In this document: in pieces, positions 3,879-44,524 of the stretch | How positions within the stretch are numbered: position 1 is the stretch's first letter | Layout: every line of letters begins with the position of its first letter | DNA from: Novosphingobium kaempferiae | GTDB taxonomy: Bacteria > Pseudomonadota > Alphaproteobacteria > Sphingomonadales > Sphingomonadaceae | DNA length: 64,000 bases | Assembly (NCBI RefSeq): GCF_021227995.1 | Contig: NZ_CP089301.1 | Coordinates: 5,456,001 to 5,520,000, forward strand | Direction of reading: 5' to 3' | Notes under the pieces: generated by a model | The model's input: only the letters and a program-made list of their open reading frames with translations | Databases searched by the model: none | Told to the model about the DNA's origin: nothing | Position numbers and translations under genes: made by a program

Positions 3879-4187
3879 TTCGTCGCCCCGTCGCGCTACG
3901 AATCCTTCGGGCTGATCTATGTGGAGGCGATGACGTTCGCCAAGCCGGTGGTCGGGCTGGCGGTGGGGGGCGTGGTCGACGTGGTCGACCACGGCGTGAA
4001 CGGCCTTCTGGTGGAGCGGGACGATCCCGCGCTGCTCGGCGAGGCGATTGCCCGTCTGGTGGATGATCCGGTCGCCCGGATGCGCATGGGGCAGGCTGGT
4101 CGCGCCCTGTACGAACAAAAATTTAATATAGAAAAGATGGTTGAAGGCACCGAGAACTGTTTCAGGAAGGTGGCATTCGCCCGATGA
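3879..4187 (+). pseudogene. 3' fragment (last 102 codons) of bifunctional GT2-GT4 glycosyltransferase
   Basis: The frame starts abruptly with FVAPSRYESFGL and runs to TGA at 4185-4187. It matches the C-terminal 102 residues of the intact paralogue ending at 8256 (FVAPSRYESFGLIFVEAM), including the GT4 donor-site E-x7-E region (ESFGLIYVE). The missing 642 residues are at 42599-44524, which stops exactly at CDI, the residues that precede FVAPSR in the paralogue. No start codon or ribosome site lies in front. So this is the other half of one gene, separated by 36 kb in the window or joined if 3879-44524 is a circle. Confidence 0.93.
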
Positions 4188-4212
4188 CCGGCGCACCACC
4201 GAGGAGAACAAG

Positions 4213-4290
4213 ATGCTGAACAGTCGTGCTGGAATGATAGACTGCAACGGCTTCCACGCCGTCCGCCAGCCGGGAGCGGTCGCCGCCTGA
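4213..4290 (+). CDS. Possible 25-residue leader or small protein
   Basis: MLNSRAGMIDCNGF..., 25 codons, preceded by a good ribosome site (GAGGAGAACAAG) and ending in TGA that overlaps the ATG of the following methyltransferase gene (TGATG). The architecture fits a translated leader that couples translation to the next gene. No homologue is recognised, and the ribosome site could simply be a chance match in high-GC DNA. Confidence 0.35.
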   Translation: MLNSRAGMIDCNGFHAVRQPGAVAA

Positions 4291-5960
4291 TGGGTATCGT
4301 ATCCTACGCCCAGAATTTCGAGGACGTCATTCTCTGGCGGGCGCTCGGGCATATTCCGAACGGCACTTACGTCGATGTCGGCGCACATCATCCCGACATC
4401 GATTCCGTCAGCCGGGCCTTCCACGACCACGGCTGGCACGGCGTCCACGTCGAGCCGGGGCCGGAGGTCGCCCGGTTGCTGCGCGACAAGCGGCCCGGCG
4501 ACATGGTGGTGCAGGCCATCGTCTCGAACGAGAGGGGCGTCAGGCCCTTCTTCGAGACGCCGGGCGGCGGCCTTTCGACGGCGGACCGCGAAGTGGCGGA
4601 CTTCCACCTGGGGCAGCAGCATGCTCCGGTCGTGGCCACCAGCGTCGTCTCGATCACGCTGGACGACCTGCTCGACCAGGTTCCGGGGGATGACATCCAC
4701 TGGATGAAGATCGACGTCGAGGGCTTCGAGCGGCAGGTGCTGGAGTCCTGGCAGACATCGCCACGCCGGCCGTGGATCGTCGTGGTCGAGGCCACGTATC
4801 CGAAGACGCGCACCCCGACATATGGCGAATGGGAGGACATCGTCCTCTCCAAGGGGTACAGCTTCGCCTACGACGACGGCCTCAACCGCTTCTACCTCAG
4901 CGACAGCCATGCCGAGCTGCGCGAAAGCCTGATCCATCCGCCGAACATCTTCGACGAGTTCCAGATCGAACCCAGCGGCGGCTCGGTCTTCTCGCAGGAC
5001 ATGAAGGCGTTCATGGAAGGCGAGATCTTCGCCCGTGACCGGCGCATCGCCGGGATCGAGGGCGAACTTGCCCGATCGCGCGCGGAGCTGCACGCCGCGT
5101 TGCAGCAGCATGCGCAGCAGCACATGCTGCACGAGCAGTCGAGGAAGGCGTGGCAGGAGGCGACCGCGCGCGCCGACGAACTGGTCGTGCGTCTGGTGGA
5201 GCGCGAGACGAACATTGCCGAGATGAAGGCGGCGCTCGAAGAGCTTCGCCTGCGCGAGGTCCTGACGCGCAGCCTGGTGTCCCGCTCGCTCGCGGACCGG
5301 TCGCTGCCCTGGCCGCTGCGGGTCTGGCGCCGGCACGGGAACGGTTCGGCGCTGGGCGGGCTGCTGGCGCTGCCCGACGGCGATTTCGTCGACGGCGCCT
5401 ATCGCGCGATCCTCGGGCGCGATGCGGACCCGCACGGGAGGACGCATTACCTCGTCCGGCTTGCCCACGGGCGCAGCCGGTCGTGGCTGCTGGAAGACCT
5501 GGCCGCTTCCGCCGAAGCCCGCGCCCATGCGACGGGGAGCGACCTTGCCGGGCTGGCCGACGAGGACTTCGTCGATGCCGCCTACCGGCGGGCGCTGGGT
5601 CGCCCGTCCGATCACGAGGGCAGGGCGCACCACACCGAGCGGCTTCAGGCCGGGCTCGCGCGGGCGGAATTGCTGAAGGTACTGCGCGCTTCCGCCGAGG
5701 GGCGCGCTCATGACGACGGCATCGGGCAGGAGATCGACGATCTCCTGCAGCGCCGTCGCAGCCCGCTGGGCTGGCGGACATGGCTGCACCCCGATCCCCT
5801 GCCGCCGCTGCTCGCCGGCGCCGGGCGCGAAAGTGCCGGGCAGGCGCGGGCCGACGAGCAGGGCAGCGCCGCGCTGGTCGATCCCGCAGAGATGCGGCAC
5901 CTTCAGGACAAGGTCAGTCTGCTGGCCGCAGCGATCGAGGGGGTCGGCTCCCGTCAGTGA
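4290..5960 (+). CDS. FkbM-family methyltransferase with coiled coil and two DUF4214 repeats
   Basis: 556 aa. Residues about 10-205 form an FkbM methyltransferase: SAM-binding GTYVDVGAHHPDIDS, then IHWMKIDVEGFERQVLESW, a family hallmark. Residues about 245-320 are a Glu/Ala/Arg-rich coiled coil. Residues about 355-475 hold two DUF4214 repeats with the cores DFVDGAYRAILGRDAD and DFVDAAYRRALGRPSD. The tail (HLQDKVSLLAAAIEGV) resembles that of the DUF4214 protein at 41853. FkbM enzymes O-methylate sugars or lipids; DUF4214 is common in surface-glycan and S-layer-related proteins of alphaproteobacteria. It lies between two copies of the bifunctional glycosyltransferase, so it probably methylates the glycan they make. 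Confidence 0.88.
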   Translation: MGIVSYAQNFEDVILWRALGHIPNGTYVDVGAHHPDIDSVSRAFHDHGWHGVHVEPGPEVARLLRDKRPGDMVVQAIVSNERGVRPFFETPGGGLSTADREVADFHLGQQHAPVVATSVVSITLDDLLDQVPGDDIHWMKIDVEGFERQVLESWQTSPRRPWIVVVEATYPKTRTPTYGEWEDIVLSKGYSFAYDDGLNRFYLSDSHAELRESLIHPPNIFDEFQIEPSGGSVFSQDMKAFMEGEIFARDRRIAGIEGELARSRAELHAALQQHAQQHMLHEQSRKAWQEATARADELVVRLVERETNIAEMKAALEELRLREVLTRSLVSRSLADRSLPWPLRVWRRHGNGSALGGLLALPDGDFVDGAYRAILGRDADPHGRTHYLVRLAHGRSRSWLLEDLAASAEARAHATGSDLAGLADEDFVDAAYRRALGRPSDHEGRAHHTERLQAGLARAELLKVLRASAEGRAHDDGIGQEIDDLLQRRRSPLGWRTWLHPDPLPPLLAGAGRESAGQARADEQGSAALVDPAEMRHLQDKVSLLAAAIEGVGSRQ

Positions 5961-6018
5961 ACGTCGATGCCCGGTGGCGGCCGGGCGTGGGCGGTTTTGG
6001 TTTTAGGTGCGAAAAATC

Positions 6019-8256
6019 ATGTCGGATGTGCCTCAGGCATTCTCTTCCCCGGTCGGGCTGCCGACCGTCTCTGTCGTCATCTGCACGGCCGATCGCGCGG
6101 AATCGCTCGACCGGACCCTGCAGAGCCTGCGCCAGTTGCGGTACGAGCGGTTCGAGGTCGTCGTGGTCGACGGTTCGCGCGACGGGCGGAGCGCCGAAGT
6201 CGCCGCGCGGCATGCCGGGTTCATCCGGTACACCACCTGTCCCGAGCTGAACCTTTCGATGTCGCGCAACATCGGCATCGCCCATGCCCGCGGCGACATC
6301 GTGGCGTTCATCGACGACGACGCCATTCCCGAGCCGGACTGGCTGGACCTGCTGCTGACCGGCTACGACGATCCCGACGTCGCGCAGGTCGGCGGCTTCA
6401 TCCGCGACAATCGCGGCATCGACTTCCAGTGCCGCTACGTCACCGTCGACCGGCTCGGCGATGGCACGCACCACGAGGATCTGTCCGGGGTGGAGCTGGG
6501 CGACGACCGCTTCCTGGGGCTGACCGGCACCAACTTCTCGGCGCGGCGCGACCGGCTGCTGGCAATCGGCGGCTTCGACGAGGAATATGCCTATTTCCTC
6601 GACGAGACCGACGTCACCGTGCGCCTGAACGACCGGGGCTGGGGGGCCGCGATCGTTCCCGAGGCGGAAATCCATCACAAGTACGAAGCCAGCCACATGC
6701 GCACGGCCACGCGCGTGCCCCGCACCATGTACCCGCAGCTACGTTCGAAGGCTTACTTCTGCTGCGTCCACGGTCGCCGCAACCATTCGCTCGACGCGAT
6801 CACCGATCACCTCGCGGACCTGATCGAGAAGGAACGCAGGTGGAAGACCGACCTTCTCGTGGATGGACAGGCCGACGAGGAGACCGTGGCGCGCCTGATC
6901 GGCGAAGTGGAGCGCGGCGCACATGACGGCATGCGCGATGCATTCCTCTATCGCTCCCCGCGCGGGATGACCGCTGCGCAGCTTGAGCAGACGGCCCAGG
7001 CGCAATTCCATGCGTTTCCGCTGCCGTTGGCTGCGGGCGACCGGCTGCGGATATGCCTGCTGTCGCAGGACTATCCACCGGTCGGCAACGGCGGGATCGG
7101 GCAGTGGACCCGGGAGATGGCCACGGGCCTTGCGGCGCGCGGGCATGAAGTCACGGTGATCTGTCGCAGCGAAACCGACTATCCCTACATCGACTTCATC
7201 GACGGGGTCTGGGTGCATCGCATCACCGAGCAGGTCGACGTGGGCGACCACGCCGTTCGCGAGGACGTGCCCGCCGCCCTGTGGAACTACAGCGCCTCGA
7301 TCGAAGCGGAAATCCGGCGTATCCAGGACCGTCGCCGGTTCCAGGTGGTGTGCGGGCCGCTGTTCGATCTCGAACCGCTGGCGGTGCTTCGCCGGTCGGG
7401 CATTCCCACCGTGGTCAGCCTGCAGACGACGTACAGGCTGGCGCTGCCGCACAAGCCGGACTGGCTGGACAACGCCTCGTATCGCAAGAATCACGTCGAC
7501 AGGGTGATCGCGAAGGAGGGGGATCTGCTGGCGAACGCGCCCTTCATCCTCGCCAATACCCCCGGCCTGATCGCGGATCTCGAGGCGGGCTATGCGGTGC
7601 GCCTGACGCCGGACCGGGTCACCACCATCGGCCACGGGATCGAGGATCTCGCGCGCGGGATCGTGCCGATGCCGGCGGCCCCGGACCGGGTGCGGCTGCT
7701 GTTCGTCGGACGCCTGGAACTGCGCAAGGGGGCGGACATCCTGCTCGATGCGCTGCCGGGGTTGCTGCGAGATCATCCGCAGCTGGACGTCGATATCGTC
7801 GGGGACGACCAGCAGGTCATCGGCAAGGACACGCTGCGCCGCACGTTCGAGGAGCGCTGCCGGCGCGACGGTGTCGATACGGCCCGCGTGACGTTCCACG
7901 GCGCCGTATCCCGCGAGGATCTGCTGCGCCATTATGCGGGCTGCGACATCTTCGTCGCCCCGTCACGCTATGAATCCTTCGGCCTCATCTTCGTCGAGGC
8001 CATGATCTTCGCCAAGCCGGTTGTCGGGATCGCCGTGGGCGGCGTCGTCGACGTGGTGGCCGACGGCGTCAACGGACTGCTCATCCCCCGCGACGATCCA
8101 GCCATGCTGGCCGACGCCCTGGCGCAACTGATCCGCGATCCGGAACGCAGGCGCGCCATGGGTCGCGCGGGCCGTGCGGCCTACGAAGAGAAATTCCGAA
8201 TGGAAGCGATGATCGACGCCAGCGAAGCCTACTTCAGGAAAGTCGCGGGACACTGA
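6019..8256 (+). CDS. Bifunctional glycosyltransferase, GT2 domain fused to GT4 domain
   Basis: 745 aa. N-terminal half: GT-A family 2 fold starting LPTVSVVICTADRAESLDRT, with AFIDDDAIPEPDW (DxD-type metal site near residue 100) and FDEEYAYFLDETDVTVRL. Residues about 350-745: GT-B family 4 fold, beginning ICLLSQDYPPVGNGGIG, with LLFVGRLELRKGADILLDAL and PSRYESFGLIFVEAM (E-x7-E donor site). Two transferases in one chain suggest sequential addition of two sugars. ATG 6019 was preferred to the GTG at 6007 because AGGTG lies at a suitable distance. The split copy (42599-44524 plus 3879-4187) is a close paralogue. Confidence 0.92.
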   Translation: MSDVPQAFSSPVGLPTVSVVICTADRAESLDRTLQSLRQLRYERFEVVVVDGSRDGRSAEVAARHAGFIRYTTCPELNLSMSRNIGIAHARGDIVAFIDDDAIPEPDWLDLLLTGYDDPDVAQVGGFIRDNRGIDFQCRYVTVDRLGDGTHHEDLSGVELGDDRFLGLTGTNFSARRDRLLAIGGFDEEYAYFLDETDVTVRLNDRGWGAAIVPEAEIHHKYEASHMRTATRVPRTMYPQLRSKAYFCCVHGRRNHSLDAITDHLADLIEKERRWKTDLLVDGQADEETVARLIGEVERGAHDGMRDAFLYRSPRGMTAAQLEQTAQAQFHAFPLPLAAGDRLRICLLSQDYPPVGNGGIGQWTREMATGLAARGHEVTVICRSETDYPYIDFIDGVWVHRITEQVDVGDHAVREDVPAALWNYSASIEAEIRRIQDRRRFQVVCGPLFDLEPLAVLRRSGIPTVVSLQTTYRLALPHKPDWLDNASYRKNHVDRVIAKEGDLLANAPFILANTPGLIADLEAGYAVRLTPDRVTTIGHGIEDLARGIVPMPAAPDRVRLLFVGRLELRKGADILLDALPGLLRDHPQLDVDIVGDDQQVIGKDTLRRTFEERCRRDGVDTARVTFHGAVSREDLLRHYAGCDIFVAPSRYESFGLIFVEAMIFAKPVVGIAVGGVVDVVADGVNGLLIPRDDPAMLADALAQLIRDPERRRAMGRAGRAAYEEKFRMEAMIDASEAYFRKVAGH

Positions 8257-8299
8257 ATGCCGGCGAATGGGCGGGCTATTTGATTTGCGAGGGTGTGTG

Positions 8300-9223
8300 A
8301 TGTTCAAGAGTAAAGTTCACGACGACAACGAAAGTCTCGATGTGCTTCAAAAGCAGATCCAGGCCTTGCAGGCATCCATAGGTACGCTCACGCAGACTGT
8401 AGATCATCTGCTGAATGTCGCCACCGAGACCCGCCAGCTTGTAGGCCCGTTCGGCACGCCCATGCCGGACGGATCGATGCTCGTGCAGACGATTCACGGC
8501 GTCAAGTTCCTGATCGACCCGAACGACCGGATAATGGCGCCGCAGCTCATCATCTACCGGCAATGGGAAGCGGAGATGACGCGTCTGTTCCTCCATAACC
8601 TCGATCCGTCGACTGTTTTCGTCGATGTCGGCGCCAACTTCGGATATTTCACGGTACTTGGTGCCAACCGCATTGGCGCGTCAGGCTCGGGGCAAGTCTA
8701 CGCCTATGAACCAAACCCGCGCCTCGTCCCGCTCCTGCGGGCCAATTGCGAGATCAACTGGTCGATGGCGCCGGTCACGATCAGCGATGCGGCGGTCGGC
8801 GCCGGGGAAGGCAGCGCGACGATCTCCGTTCCCCTGAACGGCGCGGCGAACGCTACGCTATCGGACGTCGGCGGAGACTGCGCCAGGCATGACGTGAAGG
8901 TCGTCTCTCTGGACGACAGTCTGCCGGAGGACCTCAAGGTCGATTGGCTCAAGATCGATGTGGAGGGTCACGAACTCGGAGTCCTGCAGGGCGCGCGGCG
9001 CGTCATCGCCAGATCGCCGGACGTCAGGATCGTCATGGAGTGGTCGGTCAACCAGATGCGCGACGCGGGAGTATCGGCCGACGACATGATCGCGATGTTC
9101 CGGGAACTCGGGCTGGTGGCGGCTTCGGTCCCCGACAGCGGAAGAATTTCGGACACCGAAGTGATCCGGTTCGATCGCCTCGGTGAAATTGCCTACGACA
9201 ATATCCTGCTGTGGAGACCGTAG
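8300..9223 (+). CDS. FkbM-family methyltransferase with N-terminal coiled coil
   Basis: 307 aa from the ATG at 8300 (GAGGGTGTGTG in front). Residues about 10-45 form a short coiled coil (LDVLQKQIQALQASIGTLTQ). The remainder is an FkbM methyltransferase: TVFVDVGANFGYFTVLGAN for SAM binding, then VDWLKIDVEGHELGVLQGA. It ends the reconstructed operon of glycosyl- and methyltransferases and is followed by a strong hairpin terminator. Expected role: O-methylation of a sugar in the capsule or a related surface glycan. The acceptor cannot be read from sequence. Confidence 0.88.
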   Translation: MFKSKVHDDNESLDVLQKQIQALQASIGTLTQTVDHLLNVATETRQLVGPFGTPMPDGSMLVQTIHGVKFLIDPNDRIMAPQLIIYRQWEAEMTRLFLHNLDPSTVFVDVGANFGYFTVLGANRIGASGSGQVYAYEPNPRLVPLLRANCEINWSMAPVTISDAAVGAGEGSATISVPLNGAANATLSDVGGDCARHDVKVVSLDDSLPEDLKVDWLKIDVEGHELGVLQGARRVIARSPDVRIVMEWSVNQMRDAGVSADDMIAMFRELGLVAASVPDSGRISDTEVIRFDRLGEIAYDNILLWRP

Positions 9224-9261
9224 GATAGCTGTCCCGGCGGGTTCCGGCATGACGACCCGAA

Positions 9262-9290
9262 CCATTGCCCGGCGCGAAGCCGGGCAATGG
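9262..9290. terminator. Bidirectional hairpin terminator between convergent genes
   Basis: Perfect 12-bp stem CCATTGCCCGGC / GCCGGGCAATGG with the 5-nt loop GCGAA, located between the stop at 9223 (+) and the stop at 9302 (-). There is no T-tract on either side, but position and stem strength fit a shared terminator. Confidence 0.75.
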
Positions 9291-9301
9291 TCGAGCGGCG
9301 T

Positions 9302-10018
9302 TCAGGCCGCCTTGCGGGCGATCATGAACTTCGAATACGGATCGAAGGCGCGGGAATAGACGACGATGTCGCAGTCGACGTATTCCTTCACGATGGCGCC
9401 GAGCGTCTCGTTGGGGACGTCGTCGCAGACCAGCCAGCCACCCGGGGCGAGCAGCGTGTTGATCGCGGCCGAGTAAGACCGGACTTCTTTCTCGTCATGC
9501 AGGGTGTCGCAGAAGATCATGGAATAGCGATCCCGCTTCGGAACGTGCAGGAAGTTTCCGCGGATGAACGTGGTTACGTACTTCAGCAGGCCTGCCCGGC
9601 GGATATTCTCGATGAGAGCGCCCATGCTCCCGCCGGTGCAGTGTATGTTCCTGACGATCTCGTCGTCGTCGACGAACTCGGAAAAGTCGTTGTCGAACAG
9701 CTCTTTCCACTCGGCGATCGACGTCGGCCCATAGTCGATCGTGTCGAACGATTTGGCGTTGGAGGCGTCCCTTACGCCGGCGGCGATGGCAAGCGTGGAC
9801 CGGCCCAGCCAGGGACCGATTTCCAGAATGTCGCCTGCAATGTTCTTGGCGATATTGTACAGGACGTTGACTTCCGTTCCGTTCGTCCAGCCATGCGGGA
9901 AGAACCTTCCATCTACGGAGCAGCCTTCGAGCTTTCCGAAATCAATGCCTCCATTTGCGAAAATCGTGTCGATCATAACCGTGTCGATCATCCAGGTCCC
10001 TGTTGGTACGAAATTCAC
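9302..10018 (-). CDS. Class I SAM-dependent methyltransferase (Methyltransf_24 type)
   Basis: 238 aa from a GTG at 10018 overlapping the upstream stop as GTGA. Residues about 60-80 (GDILEIGPWLGRSTLAIAAG) form the SAM-binding motif I; FDTIDYGP follows as the acidic strand 2, and RYSMIFCDTLHDEKEVRSY plus LLAPGGWLVCDDVPN mark motifs II and III with the DTLH metal-binding-like segment. Small-molecule or sugar O-methyltransferases have this arrangement. It is the last gene of the minus-strand capsule-export operon (kpsE-kpsM-kpsT-GT-MT-MT), so it probably decorates the exported polysaccharide. Confidence 0.82.
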   Translation of the reverse strand: MNFVPTGTWMIDTVMIDTIFANGGIDFGKLEGCSVDGRFFPHGWTNGTEVNVLYNIAKNIAGDILEIGPWLGRSTLAIAAGVRDASNAKSFDTIDYGPTSIAEWKELFDNDFSEFVDDDEIVRNIHCTGGSMGALIENIRRAGLLKYVTTFIRGNFLHVPKRDRYSMIFCDTLHDEKEVRSYSAAINTLLAPGGWLVCDDVPNETLGAIVKEYVDCDIVVYSRAFDPYSKFMIARKAA

Positions 10019-10776
10019 CTTCTCGCGTAGATCGTCGCGCCGACGATGCCGCCGTGGTCGATGTGGTCGAGGTACAGCCGCCTGAGGCCGGCGCGGTAGA
10101 ACAGGCCCACGACCCGCGAGAGGTCGTAGTCGTGCATGATCATCACCCCTTCCGGGATCTTCCGGCGCCGCCTGAAGGGACGGGGCGGGCGCACGCCGCC
10201 CTCGTCGTCGATGATGAGGCGGGCGCCGACCGAATTCTCGTGATGGACGGTCCGGCCGAACATGATCTGGATGGTGGCGCCGCCGTCCGGCCCCACCCGG
10301 TCGAGCAACTCGGCGATGATGTCGTAGCCGCGTTCGGGCGGGATGTGCTGGAGCACGATGGCCGAGACCACCCAGTCGAACGGCTCGTGGGGGATGGCAT
10401 CGAGGAAGCGCAGGCCCGGATGCGGGTGCCTGCGCGCCTCGGCCAGCATGCCCGGCGAGATGTCGACGCCGGTGGCGGTTCCCGTCAGCGCGGCGAGCGG
10501 GGCGGTAAGGCGGCCGACGCCGCAGCCGAAGTCGAGCGCCGAGCGAGGCTCGAAGGGCCCGAAGATCTCGCGCATGCGGTCGATGAAATGGTTGATGTCG
10601 CCTTCGCCGGAGCGGAAGAATTCGGCGCGTGCATCCTCATCGAGGTTCTCGCGCTTGAACCGGTCGGCGGTCAGGACTCCGAAGAAGGGCTCCGTCTCGC
10701 CGATGATCTGCCAGTCGCGGTCGGTGTCCCGGATCGGTTCGTCGGATCGAAAGCCCGACAGCAGGCGCTTTAGCAT
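10015..10776 (-). CDS. Class I SAM-dependent methyltransferase
   Basis: 253 aa from ATG 10776, with AGGGGAATTC in front; longer in-frame starts lack a ribosome site. Motif I is SALDFGCGVGRLTAPLAAL near residue 75, followed by GVDISPGMLAEA and DWVVSAIVLQHIPPE. The C-terminal 70 residues include a basic PPRPFRRRRKIPEG and an unusual acceptor-side region. It is coupled by GTGA to the next methyltransferase. Two adjacent methyltransferases in a capsule operon suggest two methyl modifications of the glycan. The acceptors are unknown. Confidence 0.82.
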   Translation of the reverse strand: MLKRLLSGFRSDEPIRDTDRDWQIIGETEPFFGVLTADRFKRENLDEDARAEFFRSGEGDINHFIDRMREIFGPFEPRSALDFGCGVGRLTAPLAALTGTATGVDISPGMLAEARRHPHPGLRFLDAIPHEPFDWVVSAIVLQHIPPERGYDIIAELLDRVGPDGGATIQIMFGRTVHHENSVGARLIIDDEGGVRPPRPFRRRRKIPEGVMIMHDYDLSRVVGLFYRAGLRRLYLDHIDHGGIVGATIYARR

Positions 10777-10852
10777 GAATTCCCCTAACCCCTTGGAACA
10801 TGGCTTGATATGGTCCGCCCGAGGCTTTGTCATGCCCTTGCGGGAACTGTCA

Positions 10853-12121
10853 TCAACTCTTTGCGTCCAGCGCCGCCAGCAACATGCGGGCCGAGACGCG
10901 CCAGTCCTCGGAGGGAACGGAGACCGGGATTTGACCTGCCTGTGCCGCCTCGAACCACGCCCGCGCCGCATCGGCCAGAACCCGCGGCGAGGCGTCCGCC
11001 GCGAAGAAGTGGACGCCGCGACCCTCGTGGATGCGGAACACCGGCAGGTCGCGCGCGAGCACGGGCTTGCCATGGCCGAGCGCCTCGATCAGCGGGAGGC
11101 CGAAGCCCTCGCCGTGGGAGGCGATGACGACGCCGGTGCAGGCTTCGTAGATCGCGAAAAGCTCGGCATCGCCGACGTCGTCGAACCACAGCAGCCGGGA
11201 ACCGTGCTCGGGGTGGTTCACGATGAGGTCGCGCAGCAGATCGACCTGCCAGCCCAGGCGGCCCACCAGCACCAGCCTGTCCTGCCGCCCGCGCGCCCAC
11301 AGCAGTTCGAAGGCGGCGATGACGGCGGCATGGCCCTTGCGCGGCTCCAGCGTGCCGACCATCAGCGCGAACGGTGCGGTCGTGTCGAAGCGCGCCGCCA
11401 CGGGCTCGCCCTGAGGGGCATCGGGCGCCTCCAGGATCGCGTGGCCCATCGGCAGCACCTGCGTGCGGAACCCGCGCGTCAGGCCGTGGACGCGGCTGAG
11501 GGCGCAGCGCAGTTCGGCTTCGGTCTGGGGTGAGTTGCACAGGAAGCCGTCGGCGATCCCGGCCAGCACGCCGAGCCAGGCGCCGTAGCGGATGACCGTG
11601 TTGCGCGAGAACCATTCCGGGCGGTCGAGCGGCAGCAGGTCGTGGACGAGGAACCACAGCGCGCCGCCGTCGCGCCGGAAGCGGGCGAGCTGGCGGCGGT
11701 GGCGGCGCACCGCGTCGAGCGAATAGTCCAGCCCCACGAAGACGTCGCCGGGCCGCGCGCGCATCTCCTCGCCGACCGGGCGGGCGAGGTCGGGCACGGG
11801 CCATGCGATCTCGAAGTAGCGCCGCTTGCGGCGGGCCGACACGAAGCGGATGTCCCAGCCTGCGGGCGCCTCGTCGAGCAGCGCCAGCGCCAGCGCGCGC
11901 ACGACGCGCTGGATGCCGGTCCCGGCATCGTGGTTGCTGATGACCGCCATGTCGATGAACAGCCGGGGCCTGTCCGCGTGCGCCGCGACGGGCAGGGCAG
12001 GGCCTGAAGCAGGGGCGGGAGCCGTCCGCTGCCGGTTCCGGCGCGCGCGCGCCACGCGCAGGGCGCGCCAGTCCAGCGCCTGCTCGATCCGATGGGGCAG
12101 AAGTTCGAGGAATGTCCGCAT
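10853..12121 (-). CDS. GT4-family glycosyltransferase
   Basis: 422 aa, ATG 12121. Residues about 50-70 (RLFIDMAVISNHDAGTGIQR) begin the GT-B N-terminal domain; FLVHDLLPLDRPEWF follows. The C-terminal domain contains FALMVGTLEPRKGHAAVIAAF and SHGEGFGLPLIEALGHGKPVL, the GT4 E-x7-E donor-binding region. A sister protein with the same VHDLIPIE and GTIEPRKNH signatures is encoded at 28180-29412. It sits between the capsule ABC transporter ATPase and the methyltransferases and should add a sugar to the capsule repeat or linker. The start is the only ATG that fits downstream of the ATPase stop. Confidence 0.87.
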   Translation of the reverse strand: MRTFLELLPHRIEQALDWRALRVARARRNRQRTAPAPASGPALPVAAHADRPRLFIDMAVISNHDAGTGIQRVVRALALALLDEAPAGWDIRFVSARRKRRYFEIAWPVPDLARPVGEEMRARPGDVFVGLDYSLDAVRRHRRQLARFRRDGGALWFLVHDLLPLDRPEWFSRNTVIRYGAWLGVLAGIADGFLCNSPQTEAELRCALSRVHGLTRGFRTQVLPMGHAILEAPDAPQGEPVAARFDTTAPFALMVGTLEPRKGHAAVIAAFELLWARGRQDRLVLVGRLGWQVDLLRDLIVNHPEHGSRLLWFDDVGDAELFAIYEACTGVVIASHGEGFGLPLIEALGHGKPVLARDLPVFRIHEGRGVHFFAADASPRVLADAARAWFEAAQAGQIPVSVPSEDWRVSARMLLAALDAKS

Positions 12122-12159: not shown

Positions 12160-12825
12160 TCAGCCTTCCCCGATGTGCAGGTTGCGCAAGTGCGCCTCGT
12201 GCGCCTCGTCGAACTCGGGATAGAACACGAGGTCGCCTTCGTGGAGGACGGCGAAGCGCCGGCAGTGCCTCCGGACGTATTCCAGGTCGTGCGAGATGAT
12301 GAGCATGGCCCGGTCCCGGCGCTTGCCGAACAGCTCCTCCTCGCACTTCTCGTAGAACTTGGCGTCGCCGACCGCGGTGATCTCGTCGATCAGGTAGCAG
12401 TCGAACTCGATGATCATCGAGATCGCGAAGGCGAGGCGCGCGCGCATGCCCGACGAATAGTTGCGCACCGGCTCGCGCAGGTAGGCGCCGAGTTCGGTGA
12501 ACTCGTAGACGAAGTCGATGTTGTGCTCGGTGCGCTGGTTGTAGATGCGGCTGATGAACCGCACGTTGTCGAGGCCCGTCAGCGTGTTCTGGAACGCGCC
12601 GCCGAACGCCAGCGGCCACGATACCGTCATGTCGCGGGTGACCTCGCCCGCGGTCGGACGCTCGGCGCCGCTGACGAGACGGATCAGCGTGGACTTGCCC
12701 GCGCCGTTGCGGCCCAGGATGCCCAGCTTCTCGCCGCGATCCAGCGTGAACGAGATGTCGTTCAGCACCACCCGGTCGCCGGAGCGCGTCGGGTAGACCT
12801 TGTGGACGTTGTCGAGGCGGATCAT
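12160..12825 (-). CDS. kpsT: Capsule polysaccharide ABC transporter ATPase KpsT
   Basis: 221 aa. Walker A GILGRNGAGKSTLIRL (about residues 36-50), signature NYSSGMRARLAFAISM, Walker B FDCYLIDEITAVGDAKF and switch His in LIISHDLEYVRRH. The short length without the C-terminal carbohydrate-binding domain of Wzt, and the characteristic EITAVGDAKF, place it with KpsT/CtrD of group 2-like capsule export. The start overlaps the permease stop as ATGA. With KpsM it moves the lipid-linked polysaccharide across the inner membrane. Confidence 0.94.
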   Translation of the reverse strand: MIRLDNVHKVYPTRSGDRVVLNDISFTLDRGEKLGILGRNGAGKSTLIRLVSGAERPTAGEVTRDMTVSWPLAFGGAFQNTLTGLDNVRFISRIYNQRTEHNIDFVYEFTELGAYLREPVRNYSSGMRARLAFAISMIIEFDCYLIDEITAVGDAKFYEKCEEELFGKRRDRAMLIISHDLEYVRRHCRRFAVLHEGDLVFYPEFDEAHEAHLRNLHIGEG

Positions 12826-13619
12826 TCCGGGGTGATCTCGCGGTTGGCGACGGCGACCTGCGCCAGCGCCAGCAGGGTCAGGACCGCACAGCAGCCGATC
12901 AGGTAGGGGATGTCGTAGTGGGCGCGGATATGGGCGCCGAAGTAGCCTTCGCGCACCAGTTCCACGCCGTTCACCATCGGCACGTAGAGCACGTAGCGCT
13001 GCGCTTCGGGCGGCAGGGCATCGACCATGAACGCGGCGCCCGACAACGGGAAGGTGAGGTAGGACAGCGGGTGCCAGATCTTCTCGACCAGTTCGCTCTT
13101 CTCGGACAGCGCGCCCAGGAAGACGGCGAGGCTGGCGCCGAACCACGCGATCGACAGCCATCCCGCGACGATCGTCATGACGTCCTCGGGCGGTTCCAGC
13201 CATCCGATCGAGATGTAGAACAGCGACAGCGTGACGAACGAGATCGTCGCGCCGCCGCCCTCGAGTATCAGGCGGGCGAGGAAGATGTCGATGACCCGCA
13301 CGTTGCGGTGGTACATCAGCGACAGGTTCGGCTCGATCGCGCCGATGCAGCGCGCGGGCATGTTGCGCCACAGCAGCACGGCCGAATAGCCGGTCAGCGC
13401 GAAGGCGACGATCGGCAGGTTCGAGCCGTGGACCGACTTGGCCAGCGTCCACAGGATGGTGACGCCGGTGGTGAACAGCATCGGCTCGACGAACAGCCAC
13501 AGGAAGCCGATGTTGTGCCGCCCGTAGCGCGTCAGGATCTCGCGCATCAGCAGCGCGTGGATCACGCGCCACTGGACGCTTGCGCTGCGGCCTATCGCGG
13601 AAAGCTGGGAAAGAGCCAC
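12822..13619 (-). CDS. kpsM: Capsule polysaccharide ABC transporter permease KpsM
   Basis: 265 aa, GTG start at 13619 with GAGG eight bases upstream. Starts with the cytoplasmic helix of this family (VIHALLMREILTRYGRHNIGF), followed by about six membrane segments, for example FLWLFVEPMLFTTGVTILWTL and LIGCCAVLTLLALAQVAVA. The ALLMREILTRYG motif is typical of KpsM/CtrC/RkpT2 permeases. Coupled to kpsT by ATGA and preceded by kpsE with 10 bp between them: one export operon. Confidence 0.94.
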   Translation of the reverse strand: MALSQLSAIGRSASVQWRVIHALLMREILTRYGRHNIGFLWLFVEPMLFTTGVTILWTLAKSVHGSNLPIVAFALTGYSAVLLWRNMPARCIGAIEPNLSLMYHRNVRVIDIFLARLILEGGGATISFVTLSLFYISIGWLEPPEDVMTIVAGWLSIAWFGASLAVFLGALSEKSELVEKIWHPLSYLTFPLSGAAFMVDALPPEAQRYVLYVPMVNGVELVREGYFGAHIRAHYDIPYLIGCCAVLTLLALAQVAVANREITPE

Positions 13620-13629
13620 GGTGCGCGCC

Positions 13630-18153: not shown

Positions 18154-18173
18154 TTCGTGCTTTCGAGTAGAAA
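18154..18173 (-). repeat. Single iteron upstream of the RPA gene
   Basis: TTCGTGCTTTCGAGTAGAAA, the reverse complement of the 20-bp iteron consensus TTYCTACTCGAWAGCACGAA found five times at 38377-38524. It lies 40 bp before the initiator gene and is probably an autoregulatory operator. Confidence 0.8.
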
Positions 18174-19140: not shown

Positions 19141-19160
19141 TTCCTACTCGAAAGCACGAA
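19141..19160 (+). repeat. Single iteron downstream of the RPA gene
   Basis: TTCCTACTCGAAAGCACGAA, identical to the first copy of the origin array at 38377. It lies 40 bp after the RPA stop in opposite orientation to the upstream copy. The 189 bp between the RPA stop and rmlC contain no other recognisable feature. Confidence 0.85.
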
Positions 19161-25191: not shown

Positions 25192-25216
25192 CCGCGTTCG
25201 GGCATTGACGCCACCG

Positions 25217-30144: not shown

Positions 30145-30176
30145 CTTCTCTCAAGCTCCACTGGCAGCAAGTCAGC

Positions 30177-36761: not shown

Positions 36762-37025
36762 TGTCTGCGTGGCACCATCACTTGGCCCCCGTGCGGGCCG
36801 ACAGGCGTGCAGGCGGGGGTGGGGACGGGCTCATAGCGGGCGCGGCCAAGGCTGTCATCAGGCGACTCCGTCCTCTCCCATGCAGGGCATGCGCGCGCGG
36901 CTCGGGCTTGCCGCATGGCGTCGGCGGGACTAACGCTCGTCGGGACATGCCACGCAGGCCGGGCGGCGCAAGTGCCTGCCGCCACGCAGGTTTACGTATG
37001 TCACCACGGAGCACGGGTTTTCCGA

Positions 37026-38330
37026 ATGCCTGAATATCGAACCACGGCAACCGGACCTTCAGCCGGATTTTCGAGCGGACCCTCGGGGTTCGCAAGCGGG
37101 CGCGAGCCCGCGCCGCGCAAGCGCACCGTGCTGCTGCTCCAGGGCCTGATGGGGCCGCTGTTCCGCCGTCTCGGCCAGGGGCTGATCGCCGCCGGGCACC
37201 AGGTCCACAAGGTCAACTTCAACGGCGGCGACCGCGCGTTCTGGCGGCTGCCCAATGGCATCGACTATCGCGGCACGCTGGCCGACTGGCCCGATGCCTT
37301 CGCCGCGCTGGTCGACGAGATCGGCGCGACCGACGTCGTGCTGTTCGGCGACTGCCGCGACCATCACATGCCCGCGATCCGCATCTGCCGCGATCTGGGC
37401 GTGCCGGTCCACGTCTTCGAGGAAGGCTATATCCGGCCCGACTGGGTGACGCTGGAGCTGGGGGGCGTCAACGGCCACTCCTCGCTGCCGCGCGACCCGG
37501 CGTGGTATCGCGCGACCGCGGCCGCCCTCCCCCCGGTACCGCCCCATGCGCAAGTGCCCTCCTCGTTCCGCCGCCGCGCGCTCGAAGGGCTCGGCTACAA
37601 CGTCGCCGACGTGCTCAGCCGCTGGTACTATCCGGGCTGGAGCAACCATCGCCCCTGGCATCCGGTAGTCGAGGGCATGGGCTGGTTCCGCAAGCTGCGC
37701 CGCCGCAAGGAGCGCGAAGGCTCTGCCGCCGTGCTGATGGCGCGGCTGACGGCGTCCAGGGCGCCCTACTTCCTGTTCCCGCTGCAACTCGATTCCGACG
37801 CGCAGATCCGCCTGCACTCGCCTTTCGCCGGGATCGCCGATGCGCTGAGGCTGGTGATCGGCTCGTTCGCTGCGCATGCCCCCGCTGGCACGCGCCTGGT
37901 GGTCAAGGAGCACCCGCTCGACAACGGCGTGCGCGACTGGCGGCAGGTGACGGCGGACATGGCCGCGCTGTTCGGCGTGGAGGACCGCGTCGACTACCTT
38001 GCCTGGGGGGATATCGTGGCGGTCACGCGCGGCGCGCAGGGCGTCGTCACGATCAACAGCACCAGCGGCACTTTCGCGCTCGCCGAGGGGCTGCCGGTGG
38101 TGGTGCTGGGCCATGCGGTCTACGACATCGCCGACATCACCTATCAGAACGGCATCGACGCCTTCTGGAACGATCCCGTGCCCCCCTCGCCCGAGACTTT
38201 CGCGGCGTTCCGGCGGGTGCTGATCGAGCGCTGCCTGATCCCCGGCGGCTTCTTCTCCGAAGAGGCGCTGGAGAAGGTGGTGCGCCATGCCGTCGCCCGC
38301 CTCGAAGGCCACCCGATCGCCCCCGAATGA
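37026..38330 (+). CDS. kpsS: Capsule lipid-linker Kdo transferase KpsS
   Basis: 434 aa, ATG 37026. Signature blocks of KpsS/LipB: VLLLQGLMGPLFRRLGQGLIAAGHQVHKVNFNGGD, LFGDCRDHHMPAIRICRDLGVPVHVFEEGYIRPDWVTLE, FPLQLDSDAQIRLHSPF, LVVKEHPLD, and TINSTSGTFALAEGLPVVVLG. Adds the first beta-Kdo to the phosphatidylglycerol anchor before KpsC extends the linker. It lies just upstream of the iteron array, about 9 kb from kpsC. Confidence 0.94.
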   Translation: MPEYRTTATGPSAGFSSGPSGFASGREPAPRKRTVLLLQGLMGPLFRRLGQGLIAAGHQVHKVNFNGGDRAFWRLPNGIDYRGTLADWPDAFAALVDEIGATDVVLFGDCRDHHMPAIRICRDLGVPVHVFEEGYIRPDWVTLELGGVNGHSSLPRDPAWYRATAAALPPVPPHAQVPSSFRRRALEGLGYNVADVLSRWYYPGWSNHRPWHPVVEGMGWFRKLRRRKEREGSAAVLMARLTASRAPYFLFPLQLDSDAQIRLHSPFAGIADALRLVIGSFAAHAPAGTRLVVKEHPLDNGVRDWRQVTADMAALFGVEDRVDYLAWGDIVAVTRGAQGVVTINSTSGTFALAEGLPVVVLGHAVYDIADITYQNGIDAFWNDPVPPSPETFAAFRRVLIERCLIPGGFFSEEALEKVVRHAVARLEGHPIAPE

Positions 38331-38376
38331 GGGGCGCGTAAGGCGGCGCGGGGGGTGATTCGCGGACTCTCGCGAA

Positions 38377-38524
38377 TTCCTACTCGAAAGCACGAAGTTT
38401 GCCGCCAATTGCTACTCGATAGCACGAATTGCGCGGCGAATTTCTACGCGATAGCACGAATGCGTTCGGCAATTTCTATCTGAAAGCACGAACGAATTTT
38501 CATTTTCCTACTCGATAGCACGAA
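38377..38524 (+). repeat. Origin iteron array: five 20-bp iterons with exact 32-bp period
   Basis: Copies start at 38377, 38409, 38441, 38473 and 38505: TTCCTACTCGAAAGCACGAA; TTGCTACTCGATAGCACGAA; TTTCTACGCGATAGCACGAA; TTTCTATCTGAAAGCACGAA; TTCCTACTCGATAGCACGAA. The 32-bp spacing is three helical turns, so bound proteins would line up on one face. The same sequence flanks the RPA gene at 18154 and 19141. This is the most likely vegetative origin of the plasmid. Confidence 0.9.
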
Positions 38525-38651
38525 CCGTATTGGGTTCCGCCCGGTGGGGATTGCTGCGAAAATTGTCCGATTGAAGTGGAGCCATCCGGCTGCGCTGCAA
38601 CGTGGCGATCCGGGCAGCCGGATTCTGGAAAAAGGACAGGCCGTGATCACC

Positions 38652-38737: not shown

Positions 38738-38743
38738 GCTGTC

Positions 38744-39904: not shown

Positions 39905-39934
39905 CCTGCCCTCCCCCACGGAGTTTCCTGCGGA

Positions 39935-40234: not shown

Positions 40235-40256
40235 GATATCTCAATAGTACCATAAC

Positions 40257-40298: not shown

Positions 40299-40300
40299 CA

Positions 40301-40696
40301 TCATTTGCCGCCCGATTGCTCCAGCGCTGCCAGTGCGCGCTCCAGAACGGCGCCGAGCGGGAGGTCCAGTTCGTCGGCGATGCGGTAGAGCGCGGTGATC
40401 GTCTCCTCCGTGGCCTTGATGTTGATCTGCTGGTTGCGACCGGTGGTGCGGCGGCGCGGCTGACGGACCGGTGCGGGGGCCGGATTCGGGGGAGGGGGCG
40501 CGACCGCTGCCTTCTCGCGTTTCGCGGGCTTTGCCGGGGCCGCCGGGGCAGGGGAGGGGGCGCCCTCGGTGCGCGCCTTGCGGCTCGGGAAGCCGCTTGC
40601 CTGCGCGATCTCCTCGATCGCTTCGGCCGGAACCGGCTTGGGGGAGGGCGGGGCGGCGAAATCATCGAGGTTGCCGAAAGGGTTAGCACGGCTCAT
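40301..40696 (-). CDS. Ribbon-helix-helix partition partner (ParB-like centromere-binding protein)
   Basis: 131 aa. N-terminal helix (RANPFGNLDDFAAPPSPKPVPAEAIEEI), a Pro/Ala-rich linker about 35-80, and a C-terminal RHH domain: RNQQINIKATEETITALYRIADELDLPLGAVLERALAAL. Start overlaps the parA stop (ATGA). Small RHH proteins partner type Ib ParA ATPases and bind repeated DNA sites, which are plentiful here. The 131-aa length is greater than classical ParG/omega. Confidence 0.82.
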   Translation of the reverse strand: MSRANPFGNLDDFAAPPSPKPVPAEAIEEIAQASGFPSRKARTEGAPSPAPAAPAKPAKREKAAVAPPPPNPAPAPVRQPRRRTTGRNQQINIKATEETITALYRIADELDLPLGAVLERALAALEQSGGK

Positions 40697-41391
40697 CGGG
40701 CAGTCTCCACTTCACCGGCGGCGGGCGTGCGCGCGGCGCGCAGCCGCTCGATCACTTCGGCGGCGAACTGCTCGGCATTGGCCTGCGCCTTGTCGAGATT
40801 GGAGACCTCGCGCGGGTCGAGGTTCTCCAGCGTCTGCTGGAACGAGAACACCGCGCGGAACGCCTCGCGCTCGTTGAGCTGGCTTTCGAACACCGGCACC
40901 CCGGCATCGAGCAGCCCGCCCTGGATGTGCCCCATCGTGCGGGTGCGGATGATCGGCGAGGTGCGCGTCAGCAGCACGCCGTAGGGTACCGCGCGGCCCG
41001 TCATCTTCTCGTGCTGCTTGAGCACGCGGATGGCGCGGCTCGCCTGTTCGGCGTCGAGCTGCGAGCCCTGCATCGGGATCACCACGAGATCGGCCTGGCT
41101 GACCGCGAGCAGCACGATCTTGGCCGCGGTGCCCTCTAGGTCGACGACGACGAAGGGCGTCGTCGCCGCCGCTTCCTCGATCCGGTCGATCACGTTGTCC
41201 TCGTCCACGTCGGCTAGGATCGAGAGCGTGTCGGGCAGCTGCGCGCCCTTGCTCCAGGCGGCGATGGGGTGGTTGGGGTCGGCATCGACCACGGTGACGG
41301 GCGCGGCGCGCGCCAGCTCCGAGGCGAGCAGCAGGGCGGCGGTGGTCTTGCCCACGCCCCCCTTGGGACTGACGAAGACGACGGTCGGCAT
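40693..41391 (-). CDS. parA: ParA-family partition ATPase (type Ib)
   Basis: 232 aa. Deviant Walker A FVSPKGGVGKTTAALLLASEL at the very N-terminus (no HTH extension, hence type Ib), Walker A' VVDADPNHPIAAW, and Walker B FVVVDLEGTAAKIVLLAVSQADLVVIPMQGSQLDAEQA. Drives plasmid segregation with the RHH protein. Repeats upstream of its start at 41415-41436 should serve as operator and possibly centromere. Confidence 0.93.
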   Translation of the reverse strand: MPTVVFVSPKGGVGKTTAALLLASELARAAPVTVVDADPNHPIAAWSKGAQLPDTLSILADVDEDNVIDRIEEAAATTPFVVVDLEGTAAKIVLLAVSQADLVVIPMQGSQLDAEQASRAIRVLKQHEKMTGRAVPYGVLLTRTSPIIRTRTMGHIQGGLLDAGVPVFESQLNEREAFRAVFSFQQTLENLDPREVSNLDKAQANAEQFAAEVIERLRAARTPAAGEVETAR

Positions 41392-41414
41392 GGACGATTC
41401 CCCTTTCGCAGTAC

Positions 41415-41500
41415 CGGATAGCTAGCTGGTAGCTACCATGTCAATTCACGAAGACGTTCCGGATAACATGAGATACCATCGAAGTACCATGAATGGTATC
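41415..41500. promoter_or_regulatory. parA promoter region with palindromic repeats
   Basis: GGATAGCTAGCTGGTAGCTACC (41415-41436) repeats the GTAGCTA motif, and GATACCAT...ATGGTATC (41472-41479 / 41493-41500) forms a further inverted repeat. Probably the autoregulatory and partition site of the parA operon. Confidence 0.65.
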
Positions 41501-41852: not shown

Positions 41853-42530
41853 ATGACCATTGCGGAACTCGTTTCCCTGCAAGACGAGGCGTTCCTCCAC
41901 GAAGCGTACCGCCTCGTGCTGGGGCGCGAGATCGACACTTCCGGCCTTGAAGGATACCGCCGCAAGCTTGCGCAGGGGCGCAGCAGGCAGTCCGTCCTGG
42001 TGGCGCTGGCGCGTTCGAAGGAAGCGCAGGCGCGGTTTGCGCCGCCCGCGCTGTTCGAGCTGTCGGACGAGGCTTTCGTGGACGCCGTCTATGTCCGCAT
42101 GCTCGGCCGCAATGCCGATGCGGACGGCATGCGCCACTATCTTGGCCAGCTCGGCAGGCACGGCGACCGGATGAGGATCCTGCGCGGCATTGGCGCCTCG
42201 GAAGAAGCCCGCCGGCATGATCCGCGGGGATGGTCGTTCCGCCGCGAACTCGACGACCTGATCCGCCGCGAGACCAGTCTTCTGGGCTGGCGCAGGCTGC
42301 TGCCGGAGGTCCGGGGCAGGGCACCTTCGGCGCGCGGCTCCTCGCAGGGGGAGATGGCCGTGTTCGCCAAGGAAATGCTGCAGGTCCAGCGCGAGGAGAA
42401 CGCCGCGCTCAAGGACCAGATCATGCTTCTCGCCAGCGCGATCGAGGGGCTCGCCGCCGCGCAGAAGCGCGACGCCGCCCGCATCGATGCGCTGATCGCG
42501 GCCCGCGACGCTGCGGGGCTCTCCGCCTGA
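41853..42530 (+). CDS. DUF4214-domain protein with C-terminal coiled coil
   Basis: 225 aa. Two DUF4214 repeats: DEAFLHEAYRLVLGREIDTSGLEGY and DEAFVDAVYVRMLGRNADADGMRHY. Residues about 165-215 are a coiled coil (EMLQVQREENAALKDQIMLL, ASAIEGLAAAQKRDAARIDAL). The C-terminus resembles that of the FkbM-DUF4214 protein at 4290, so the two are relatives, this one without the methyltransferase. It precedes the split glycosyltransferase by 68 bp, as the other precedes its glycosyltransferase by 58 bp. May scaffold or anchor the glycosyltransferase. Confidence 0.83.
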   Translation: MTIAELVSLQDEAFLHEAYRLVLGREIDTSGLEGYRRKLAQGRSRQSVLVALARSKEAQARFAPPALFELSDEAFVDAVYVRMLGRNADADGMRHYLGQLGRHGDRMRILRGIGASEEARRHDPRGWSFRRELDDLIRRETSLLGWRRLLPEVRGRAPSARGSSQGEMAVFAKEMLQVQREENAALKDQIMLLASAIEGLAAAQKRDAARIDALIAARDAAGLSA

Positions 42531-42598
42531 GCGCGGCAGCCTTACCCTCTACCCGAAACAGTGGAACCCCGGTCGGGATGCATCCCGACAGATCACAT

Positions 42599-44524
42599 AT
42601 GACCAACCCAGCCCTTTTCCCCGCTTCGCCCAAGTCCGTATCCATCGTGATCGCAACCGCCGGCCGGGCGCTGTCGCTGGACCGGACCCTGCAGAGCCTG
42701 CGCCAGCTGCGCTACCCGCTGTTCGAGGTGATCGTCGTCCTCGGCCCGTCGCCGGACGATTCCGCACGGATCGTCGCGCGGCATGCCGATTTCGTCCGCC
42801 TCGGCACGATCGACAGGCTCAACCTGTCGGCGGCGCGCAACATCGGCCTCGCCATGGCCCGCGGCGACATCGTGGCGTTCATCGACGATGACGCCATACC
42901 CGAGCCGGACTGGCTGGACCTGCTGCTGACCGGCTACGACGATCCCGACGTCGCGCAGGTCGGCGGATTCATCCGCGACAATCGCGGCATCGACTTCCAG
43001 GCGAAGTATCTGGTGGTGGACCGCTTCGGGGATTCGGCCGAGAGCGAAGGCGCCCCCGAGAACCTCGGCGACGACCGCTTCCTCGCACTGACCGGCACCA
43101 ACTTCTCGGCGTGGCGCGACCGGCTGCTGGCGATCGGCGGCTTCGACGAGGAGTACGCCTACTTCCTCGACGAAACCGACGTCACCGTGCGCCTGCACGA
43201 CCGGGGCTGGACTTCCGCGATCGTTCCCGAGGCGGAGATCCACCACAAGTACGAAGCCAGCCACATGCGGACCGAGACCCGCGTGCCGCGCACCATGTAC
43301 CCGACGGCGCGCTCCAAGGCGTACTTCTGCTGCGTTCACGGCGGCCGCCAGCGCCCGCTGCACGAGGTCATGGCCTATCTTGCCGATTTCGTTCGCAAGG
43401 AGCGGGCCTGGAAGGGCGACCTGTTCCGGTACGGCCATGCGGACCAGGCCACCGTCGACCGGCTGATCGAGGAAGTCGAGCGCGGTGTGCGCGACGGCGT
43501 GCGCGATGCCTTCCTGTACCACGGCCCGCAAGGCCTGCTGGCGGACCCGTCCGCCGAATTCACGGGAGACCCGGCGCAGTTCCACCGGTTCGCGCTGCCG
43601 CTGGCGGCGCAGGACCGGCTGCGGCTCTGCTTCCTGTCGCAGGACTATCCGCCGGTGGGCAACGGCGGCATCGGCCAGTGGACCCGCGAGATGGCCATCG
43701 GCCTCGCCGCGCGCGGGCACGAGGTCACGGTGATCTGCCGCAGCGAGACGGATTTTCCCTATATCGACTTCATCGACGGGGTCTGGGTCCATCGCATCGT
43801 CGTCAGTCCTGCCGATCCGGCGCAGGCCGAGCGCGAGGACGTGCCGCTGACGCTGCTGAACTACAGCGCCTCGGCGGCGGCGGAGATCGAGCGCATCCAG
43901 TCGCGCCGCCGGTTCCAGGTGGTCTGCGGCCCGCTCTTCGATCTCGAACCGCTGGCCGCGCTGCGCAACCTCGACATCCCGACGGTCGTCAGCCTCCAGA
44001 CGACCTACAAGCTCGCCCTGCCGCACAAGCCTGACTGGCTGGGCAACGCGTGGTATCGCAAGTCCCACGTCGACAAGGTCATCGCGAAAGAAAAGGAATT
44101 GCTGGAAACGGCCCCTTTCATCCTGGCGAACACCGGCGCGCTGGTCGCCGACCTGGAGGCGGGCTACGCCGTCTCGCTGAAGCCGGACAGGGTGACGATC
44201 GTCCCTCACGGGATCGAGGATCTCGCGCGCGGGGTCGAACCCATGGCGGCGCAGCCGGGCGTGGTGCGGCTGCTGTTCGTCGGGCGACTGGAACTGCGCA
44301 AGGGTGCCGATCTCCTGCTCGATGCGCTGCCCGGCCTGCTGCGCGATCATCCGCAGCTCGAAGTGGACATCGTGGGCGACGATGGCCTGGTGATCGACGG
44401 CGAGACGTTGCGCCATCGGTACGAGGCGCGCTGGCGCGATGCCGGGCTCGACATGCGGCGGGTGACGTTCCACGGCGCCGTATCCCGCGAGGATCTGCTG
44501 CGCCACTATGCGAGCTGCGACATC
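42599..44524 (+). pseudogene. 5' part (642 codons) of bifunctional GT2-GT4 glycosyltransferase
   Basis: From ATG 42599: MTNPALFPASPKSVSIVIATAGRALSLDRT. GT2 domain with AFIDDDAIPEPDWLDLLL and FDEEYAYFLDETDVTVRL; GT4 domain with LCFLSQDYPPVGNGGIG and LLFVGRLELRKGADLLLDALPGLL. Homology to the paralogue at 6019-8256 stops after HYASCDI at 44524; the frame continues through unrelated antisense autotransporter sequence to 45511, giving a false 970-aa ORF. The missing 102 C-terminal residues, including the donor-binding E-x7-E, are at 3879-4187. As it stands the GT4 half is inactive. Confidence 0.94.

Follow-up and report, generated by a model that had tools for sequence, protein, structure and literature searches.

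Plasmids that carry genes for surface polysaccharides have previously been described in sphingomonads and in a different bacterial order. Deletion of wza on plasmid p5 of Sphingobium xenophagum C1 led to higher cell surface hydrophobicity (PMC10734547). Likewise, the RepA-type plasmids of Roseobacter are described as carrying a rhamnose operon for surface attachment (PMC8224337, PMC9426580). In this study, a window of 64,000 nucleotides, covering positions 5,456,001-5,520,000 of the one-contig, 5,698,134-base genome record of Novosphingobium kaempferiae (NZ_CP089301.1), was analyzed. Within this window, the 40,646-bp segment at 3879-44524 can be read with high confidence, judging from its sequence, as an opened circle, namely a complete plasmid that was cut inside a glycosyltransferase (GT) gene.

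The cut gene encodes a GT2-GT4 fusion glycosyltransferase and is distributed over the two ends of the segment. The N-terminal 642 residues are encoded at 42599-44524 (plus strand), and the C-terminal 102 residues and the stop codon lie at 3879-4187 on the same strand. The preliminary description had proposed that one gene was split in this way, and the proposal proved exact to the base. Moreover, the Pfam matches of the two pieces complemented each other: PF00534 was covered at profile positions 18-95 in the N-terminal piece and 96-170 in the C-terminal piece, PF13692 was covered at positions 3-79 and 80-142, and no position of either profile was lost or duplicated between them. An intact paralogous GT2-GT4 glycosyltransferase of 745 amino acids (6019-8256, plus strand) matched both families unbroken, and as direct repeats this paralogue paired with 42636-44122 and with 3879-4071. 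As a small correction to the preliminary description, the plus-strand frame stays open past 44524 to 45511, where it runs antisense to an autotransporter gene.

The strongest evidence for closure of the circle came from a relative. Relatives of the plasmid's replication gene, repA, were sought in contigs of one genome per species; 137 stretches encoded one, and the best 80 of the 137 were kept. The third match among these was JAGHZR010000020.1, a 76,820-bp contig of the metagenome-assembled genome Novosphingobium sp. BIN1. Because its first and last 119 bases are identical, this contig is probably circular itself. On its reverse strand, it carries an intact orthologue of the split GT: residues 1-642 of the 642-residue piece matched 7565-9490 and residues 1-102 of the 102-residue piece matched 9491-9796, directly abutting and both at 86% identity. 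At the DNA level, bases 6780-9852 of the contig matched 41811-44524 of the window (78.6%) and then 3879-4238 (78.8%), with the switch at 9490/9491. The gene order of the contig was also that of the closed window circle, running through the DUF4214 gene, the GT, the FkbM-DUF4214 gene, the second GT, a methyltransferase, the exporter, Wza, the recombinase and RepA. The two ends of the segment were thus found side by side in the continuous DNA of a relative, within one intact gene. It is this exact complementarity, together with an intact orthologue that has the same neighbors on a contig with overlapping ends, that argues for a circle.

The two pieces might instead be separate broken GT genes whose ends match by coincidence; in favor of this, another full-length GT of this type begins 1.8 kb from the left piece. 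However, each piece shares 86% identity with its half of a single orthologue, in which the halves abut and the neighbors are the same, whereas identity to the neighboring paralogue at 6019-8256 is just 69% and 58%. In addition, the cut point is exact to the base in the alignment with the relative's contig, and a DNA search of the strain's own genome found, at length, only the split GT and the 6019-8256 copy. A coincidence of this kind is therefore considered hardly credible.

The content of the segment is also that of a plasmid. The RPA-type replication initiator gene, repA (18213-19100, plus strand), scored 195 bits against PF10134 (cut-off 27), and its product shares 80% identity with that of a Sphingobium sp. 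V4 plasmid. The iterons extend over the segment as follows: an inverted core upstream of repA (18154-18170, minus strand), a single core just downstream of it (19144-19160, plus strand) and an array of five 32-bp iterons (38371-38530, plus strand). The core occurred seven times at up to 3 mismatches, with 0.09 expected, and seven was reached in none of 100 shuffles. Hence the iteron origin named in the preliminary description was borne out, and the combination of an RPA initiator with iterons defines an RPA-type iteron plasmid; RPA relatives were present in 1,049 of 72,556 plasmid records. The other backbone genes that had been named were likewise all identified. They comprise an HTH_36 plasmid protein (38824-39702, plus strand), the partition genes (40304-41391, minus strand) and an XerC/D-like tyrosine recombinase (16310-17269, minus strand; a family match below the equivalog cut-offs). 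ParA was recognized by its VirC1/CbiA match and by comparison with the V4 plasmid, and its small partner is ParB-like by position only; on p5, the gene adjoining parA is annotated as a 'stability/partitioning determinant'. A search of the record for further RPA initiators, which would mark other pasted plasmids, found none beyond repA at 18213-19100.

The DNA to the right of the segment suggests how the plasmid came to lie in this record. On the minus strand, 44525-50833 encodes an autotransporter passenger of 2103 residues that is cut before its beta-domain, as indicated by Pfam and by alignment to paralogues. The alignment stops at residue 1464 of an intact 1703-residue paralogue, and a lone beta-domain piece located 190 kb away (record positions 5,690,062-5,690,790) starts at residue 1465 of the same paralogue. 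Against a second intact paralogue, the passenger ends at 514 and the lone piece starts at 515. This lone piece lies inside a 299-residue open frame with no passenger ahead of it, and the frame next to it had no Pfam match. Moreover, in a second passenger (record positions 5,002,465-5,007,530), DNA similarity breaks off at this very codon, and different sequence follows. Such a pattern, in which two passengers stop at a single codon and one fitting remainder lies elsewhere, would be expected if near-identical 3' parts shared by these genes had collapsed into a contig of their own. Both the second beta-less passenger and the lone beta-domain piece stand at apparent contig joins. The right flank and several other places in the record thus look like contig ends that were butted together.

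Other features of the record point in the same direction. Its last 12 kb hold two IS110-type transposases, pieces of DUF4915 genes (profile positions 2-77 and 86-292) and DNA of Ig-like repeats, as well as a further transposase (HTH_38 and rve) that we take to be IS30-like. A flagellin N-terminus is cut off where the record ends, and by eye none of the forward frames at base 1 continues it. Given the small pieces near its end, the record may list its contigs in order of size. To locate interrupted genes, a codon-pair model that penalizes coding regions lacking a start or stop at their end was run over the last 516,134 bases and over 39 control stretches (1,000,000 bases); breaks that lay less than 400 bases from the end of a stretch were discarded, and the location of the join was not supplied. 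The sole abutting pair of coding breaks in the 516-kb tail and the 1,000 kb of controls was 44524/44525, which was two-sided. At the strict setting, 7 breaks were found in the tail versus 0, 1 and 0 in controls of 120, 80 and 80 kb, the single one being at a stretch end. Furthermore, GC skew was taken in 40 stretches of the record: the 30 whose absolute value exceeded 0.01 fell into 7 sign runs, and the 27 that exceeded 0.015 into 5. At either threshold, control samples from two other genomes, one of which belongs to the same genus, gave fewer runs, namely 2 (19 of 20 samples) and 3 (17 and 16 of 20). Near the record end, exactly 5,000 bases (5,682,501-5,687,500) are masked, perhaps an rRNA operon. 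The 16S rRNA gene was tried as a test for collapsed repeats and dropped as uninformative: there was no match in the strain's own genome, a universal primer pattern matched only 2 of 41 genomes, and stretches are masked.

Taken together, these observations suggest the following course of events. A 40,646-bp circular plasmid would be replicated by an RPA-type initiator acting on 32-bp iterons and partitioned by ParA and its small partner, and it would encode a surface polysaccharide by means of rhamnose genes, glycosyltransferases and FkbM methyltransferases. Most probably, the circle was cut inside the GT gene when it was written as a linear contig, and this contig was then joined without spacers to other draft contigs to yield the single 5.698-Mb pseudo-molecule. 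If the circle was opened only in the writing-out, the split GT gene would be intact in the cell. The one-contig genome is accordingly most likely a concatenation of draft contigs, and the explanation as a whole, a complete circular plasmid cut in its GT gene and concatenated with draft contigs, is regarded as very probable.

The preliminary description had left two options for the opened plasmid, integration into other sequence or fusion during assembly; the circle itself has gained strong evidence from the intact orthologue and the fusion has been supported, whereas integration has not. True integration would imply that illegitimate recombination cut the GT gene of the plasmid and that chromosomal DNA was lost at the target. 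In its favor, the record is one uninterrupted contig, a tyrosine recombinase is among the genes of this plasmid family, and the sphingomonad plasmid pPDL2 has been reported to have an integrase and an attachment site (PMC3516476). However, no word of at least 7 bases is common to the sequences within 60 bases of both joins, and by eye the flank ends hold no shorter duplications, so that neither attachment sites nor a target duplication were found. The flanks are not in one frame either, as the passenger stops at 44525 with a complete codon and the codons of the left frame are two bases off. Moreover, the missing part of the passenger is found at another apparent butt joint, a paralogue is broken at the same codon, and the GC skew pattern also argues against integration. 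Empty target sites were sought in 41 genomes: with 1,076 bases from the start of the right flank, 15 genomes matched (own included), with matches of 29-113 bases outside the own genome, and with the left flank, 8 matched (own included), the longest outside being about 340 bases at 65%; such short matches do not reveal an empty site. Integration is judged improbable. A mixed population, in which a circular plasmid exists alongside an integrated copy, meets the same objections and is further at odds with the single copy in the record; we consider it very improbable.

Several observations weigh against the reading of a circular plasmid pasted among draft contigs. The record is a single contig and is rated 100% complete, and we infer from its letters that the joins are absent from the cell and that the plasmid is free in the strain. 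The exact abutment of passenger and beta-domain was seen in just two of the four intact paralogues that align, the other two leaving 14 and 17 residues; the join base of the lone beta-domain piece is uncertain by a few bases, and the protein alignment of the second passenger extends two residues more, to 1466. Counts of coding breaks are weak evidence, with 10 in the tail against 8 in the controls at the middle setting and 19 against 25 at the lax one. Of the 10 tail breaks, two are the join in question and four fall within the final 12 kb, so that elsewhere the tail shows no excess of breaks over the controls. The sampling of skew was also denser than for the two control genomes; when only every second sample was used, the number of runs was 5 or 7 for the 0.01 threshold and 5 for 0.015. 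The left join, 3878/3879, was not flagged by the coding-break scan, and the 87-codon open frame at this join had no Pfam family, no plasmid or phage relatives and no gene predicted by the scan; this frame was considered as a truncated gene and is not claimed as one. Finally, just one of the two nearest plasmid relatives has the GT. The second of them, a contig of Novosphingobium sp. 18050 (83,662 bases, no terminal overlap), has the backbone and capsule genes in common with the window, and its best match to the split GT is only 25% identical. If the reading of a concatenated circular plasmid holds, the record gives a plasmid the appearance of chromosomal DNA, shows an intact gene as broken and would mislead counts of integrated plasmids or of pseudogenes.

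The origin of this plasmid is arranged in a different way from that of most of its kin. Among 81 loci (the 80 repA relatives and V4), the HTH gene follows repA within 1.5 kb in 66, at 0.4-0.8 kb in most; it lies elsewhere in 1 and was not found within the examined stretch in 14. Where RepA identity is higher, the space between repA and the HTH gene holds the iterons. In the window, in contrast, the HTH gene is 19.7 kb from repA, beyond the 1.5-kb spacing that is common to the kin without strictly defining them, and 19.2 kb separate the iteron at 19144, beside repA, from the array at 38380-38524. This split recurs in the two closest relatives (RepA 87-89%), where repA is followed by one iteron, and the array and the HTH gene occupy another part of the contig. 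At two more distant loci (L196 and L202), one iteron likewise follows repA, and no HTH gene was found within the examined stretch. In the BIN1 contig, lone exact iterons stand at 30162 and at 59053, and rfbC follows the second of these after 110 bases; the window likewise has one iteron just before rfbC. In addition, a 67-bp repeat that includes an iteron occurs in that contig at 25873 and 30154, flanking a 4.3-kb block, and lone exact iterons delimit three successive blocks. Within flanks of up to 10 kb among the 80 loci, the BIN1 relative alone had an iteron standing over 1.6 kb away from all others.

Cargo thus separates the iteron array from repA in the plasmid of the window and in its two closest kin, which is possibly a new arrangement; no paper on the entry of cargo between iterons was among the matches listed in a literature search. 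Entry between iterons would explain both the lone iterons and the split array, and three plasmids are too few for a claim. We offer only tentatively the somewhat doubtful idea that the origin doubles as a cargo dock, where capsule modules enter between iterons and leave one iteron beside repA, with the remaining array tens of kilobases distant. If true, recombination between iterons, or by the tyrosine recombinase of the plasmid, would let plasmids swap surface coats at the origin. The split origin suggests a testable route for the exchange of surface-coat modules among such plasmids.

The cargo itself includes both export and synthesis genes, as in a surface-polysaccharide plasmid. Upstream of the split GT lies a gene for a DUF4214 protein (41853-42530, plus strand), the same neighbor as in the BIN1 relative. 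On the other side of the cut, the following genes were found: an FkbM methyltransferase with a DUF4214 part (4290-5960, plus strand), a further FkbM methyltransferase (8267-9223, plus strand) and an S-adenosylmethionine-type (SAM) methyltransferase (10015-11073, minus strand). The export genes comprise a block for a KpsT-like ABC ATPase, a KpsM-like ABC-2 permease and a BexC/CtrB/KpsE-like protein (12160-14739, minus strand; TIGR01010 at 365.9 bits, below the cut-off of 437.5) and a Poly_export protein of the Wza/KpsD-like type (15121-16299, plus strand). The dTDP-rhamnose genes rfbC and rfbD lie at 19290-20769 (plus strand), as supported by comparison with the V4 plasmid and by a match of rfbC to TIGR01221 above the cut-off, and no frame in the segment matched the rfbA and rfbB genes of the V4 plasmid. 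The CMP-Kdo families are represented by KdsA (22441-23268, minus strand), KpsF (23460-24446, plus strand) and KdsB (25205-26035, plus strand). Two Capsule_synth proteins complete the set, one of the KpsC/KpsS family (26618-28183, plus strand) and one KpsS-like (36915-38330, plus strand; 254 bits, below the equivalog cut-off of 600). The families expected of a group 2-like capsule locus (KpsM/T/E, an export protein, the KpsC/S type and CMP-Kdo synthesis) are therefore all present, with the KpsS and KpsE models below the NCBI cut-offs. The cargo probably makes a capsule that is exported by an ABC transporter and linked to Kdo, or a similar surface polysaccharide; the Kdo link and all gene functions are predicted from families.

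Several smaller features accompany these genes. A MazF-like gene (21822-22145, minus strand) and a pair with MazE and PIN domains (24460-25091, minus strand) on the plasmid are probable stability modules. ARAGORN reported a tRNA-Thr (GGT) at 16932-17005 (minus strand), inside the recombinase gene, which is probably a false positive. The left flank (1-3878) is other DNA that carries a CHC2/Toprim primase-like gene (1238-2230, minus strand; Pfam). A small frame at 3336-3575 (minus strand) resembles, by eye, a DNA-binding regulator and, together with the primase-like gene, suggests a separate mobile island. Beyond the right flank, 52348-62741 holds plus-strand open reading frames of 1927, 424, 733 and 420 amino acids in DNA of lower GC (about 0.58-0.64). 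This region has the look of an exporter together with a large substrate, and the DNA near 60908 resembles the ABC ATPase gene of the plasmid as an inverted repeat.

Compared with public plasmids, 3879-12000 had no near match in a DNA search. The 24 kb of the segment middle matched 36 records, in none of which one place covered 80%, and the GT N-terminal piece, as protein, matched 122 records, none of them covering 80%. The kind of plasmid is already known, nevertheless, and three plasmids and the BIN1 contig serve to place the present one. The initiator of p5 (NZ_CP022751.1, 62,622 bp) is 78.6% identical to that of the window, and its annotation also lists an HTH gene, ParA, a tyrosine recombinase, a polysaccharide export protein, an ABC permease and ATPase, a Wzz-type protein and rhamnose genes. 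It differs in its wza-rfbCBDA operon, its IS5 and Tn3 transposases, the lack of annotated Kdo genes and an HTH gene about 0.7 kb after repA. Plasmid unnamed2 of Sphingobium sp. V4 (NZ_CP081003.1, 33,206 bp, circular) shares RepA (80%), ParA (83%), the recombinase (72%), the HTH protein (61%), RfbC (80%), RfbD (77%), the exporter set (30-48%) and the same iteron core in five copies. In contrast to the present plasmid, its iteron array lies directly between repA and the HTH gene, it has no annotated Kdo genes, and its proteins match the GT2-GT4 proteins only distantly (29-31%). The BIN1 contig is about 36 kb larger, with extra blocks between repA and rfbC that are bounded by lone iterons. Novosphingobium sp. 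P6W plasmid pP6W2 (NZ_CP030355.1, 188,672 bp) has in common, at about 65-82%, the genes for PhyH, Capsule_synth, GT4, DUF2279, fatty-acid hydroxylase, SDR, sulfatase and KpsS-like proteins. This plasmid is larger and encodes a MOBF relaxase, its KpsF and KdsB are only 38-40% alike, and its RepA (62%) is encoded far from the common gene block. The RepA-I biofilm plasmids of Roseobacter, from a different bacterial order, offer a functional parallel by description and not by sequence. By all these comparisons of sequence, the present plasmid is a new small member of a known sphingomonad family, and it is a member with Kdo-capsule genes.

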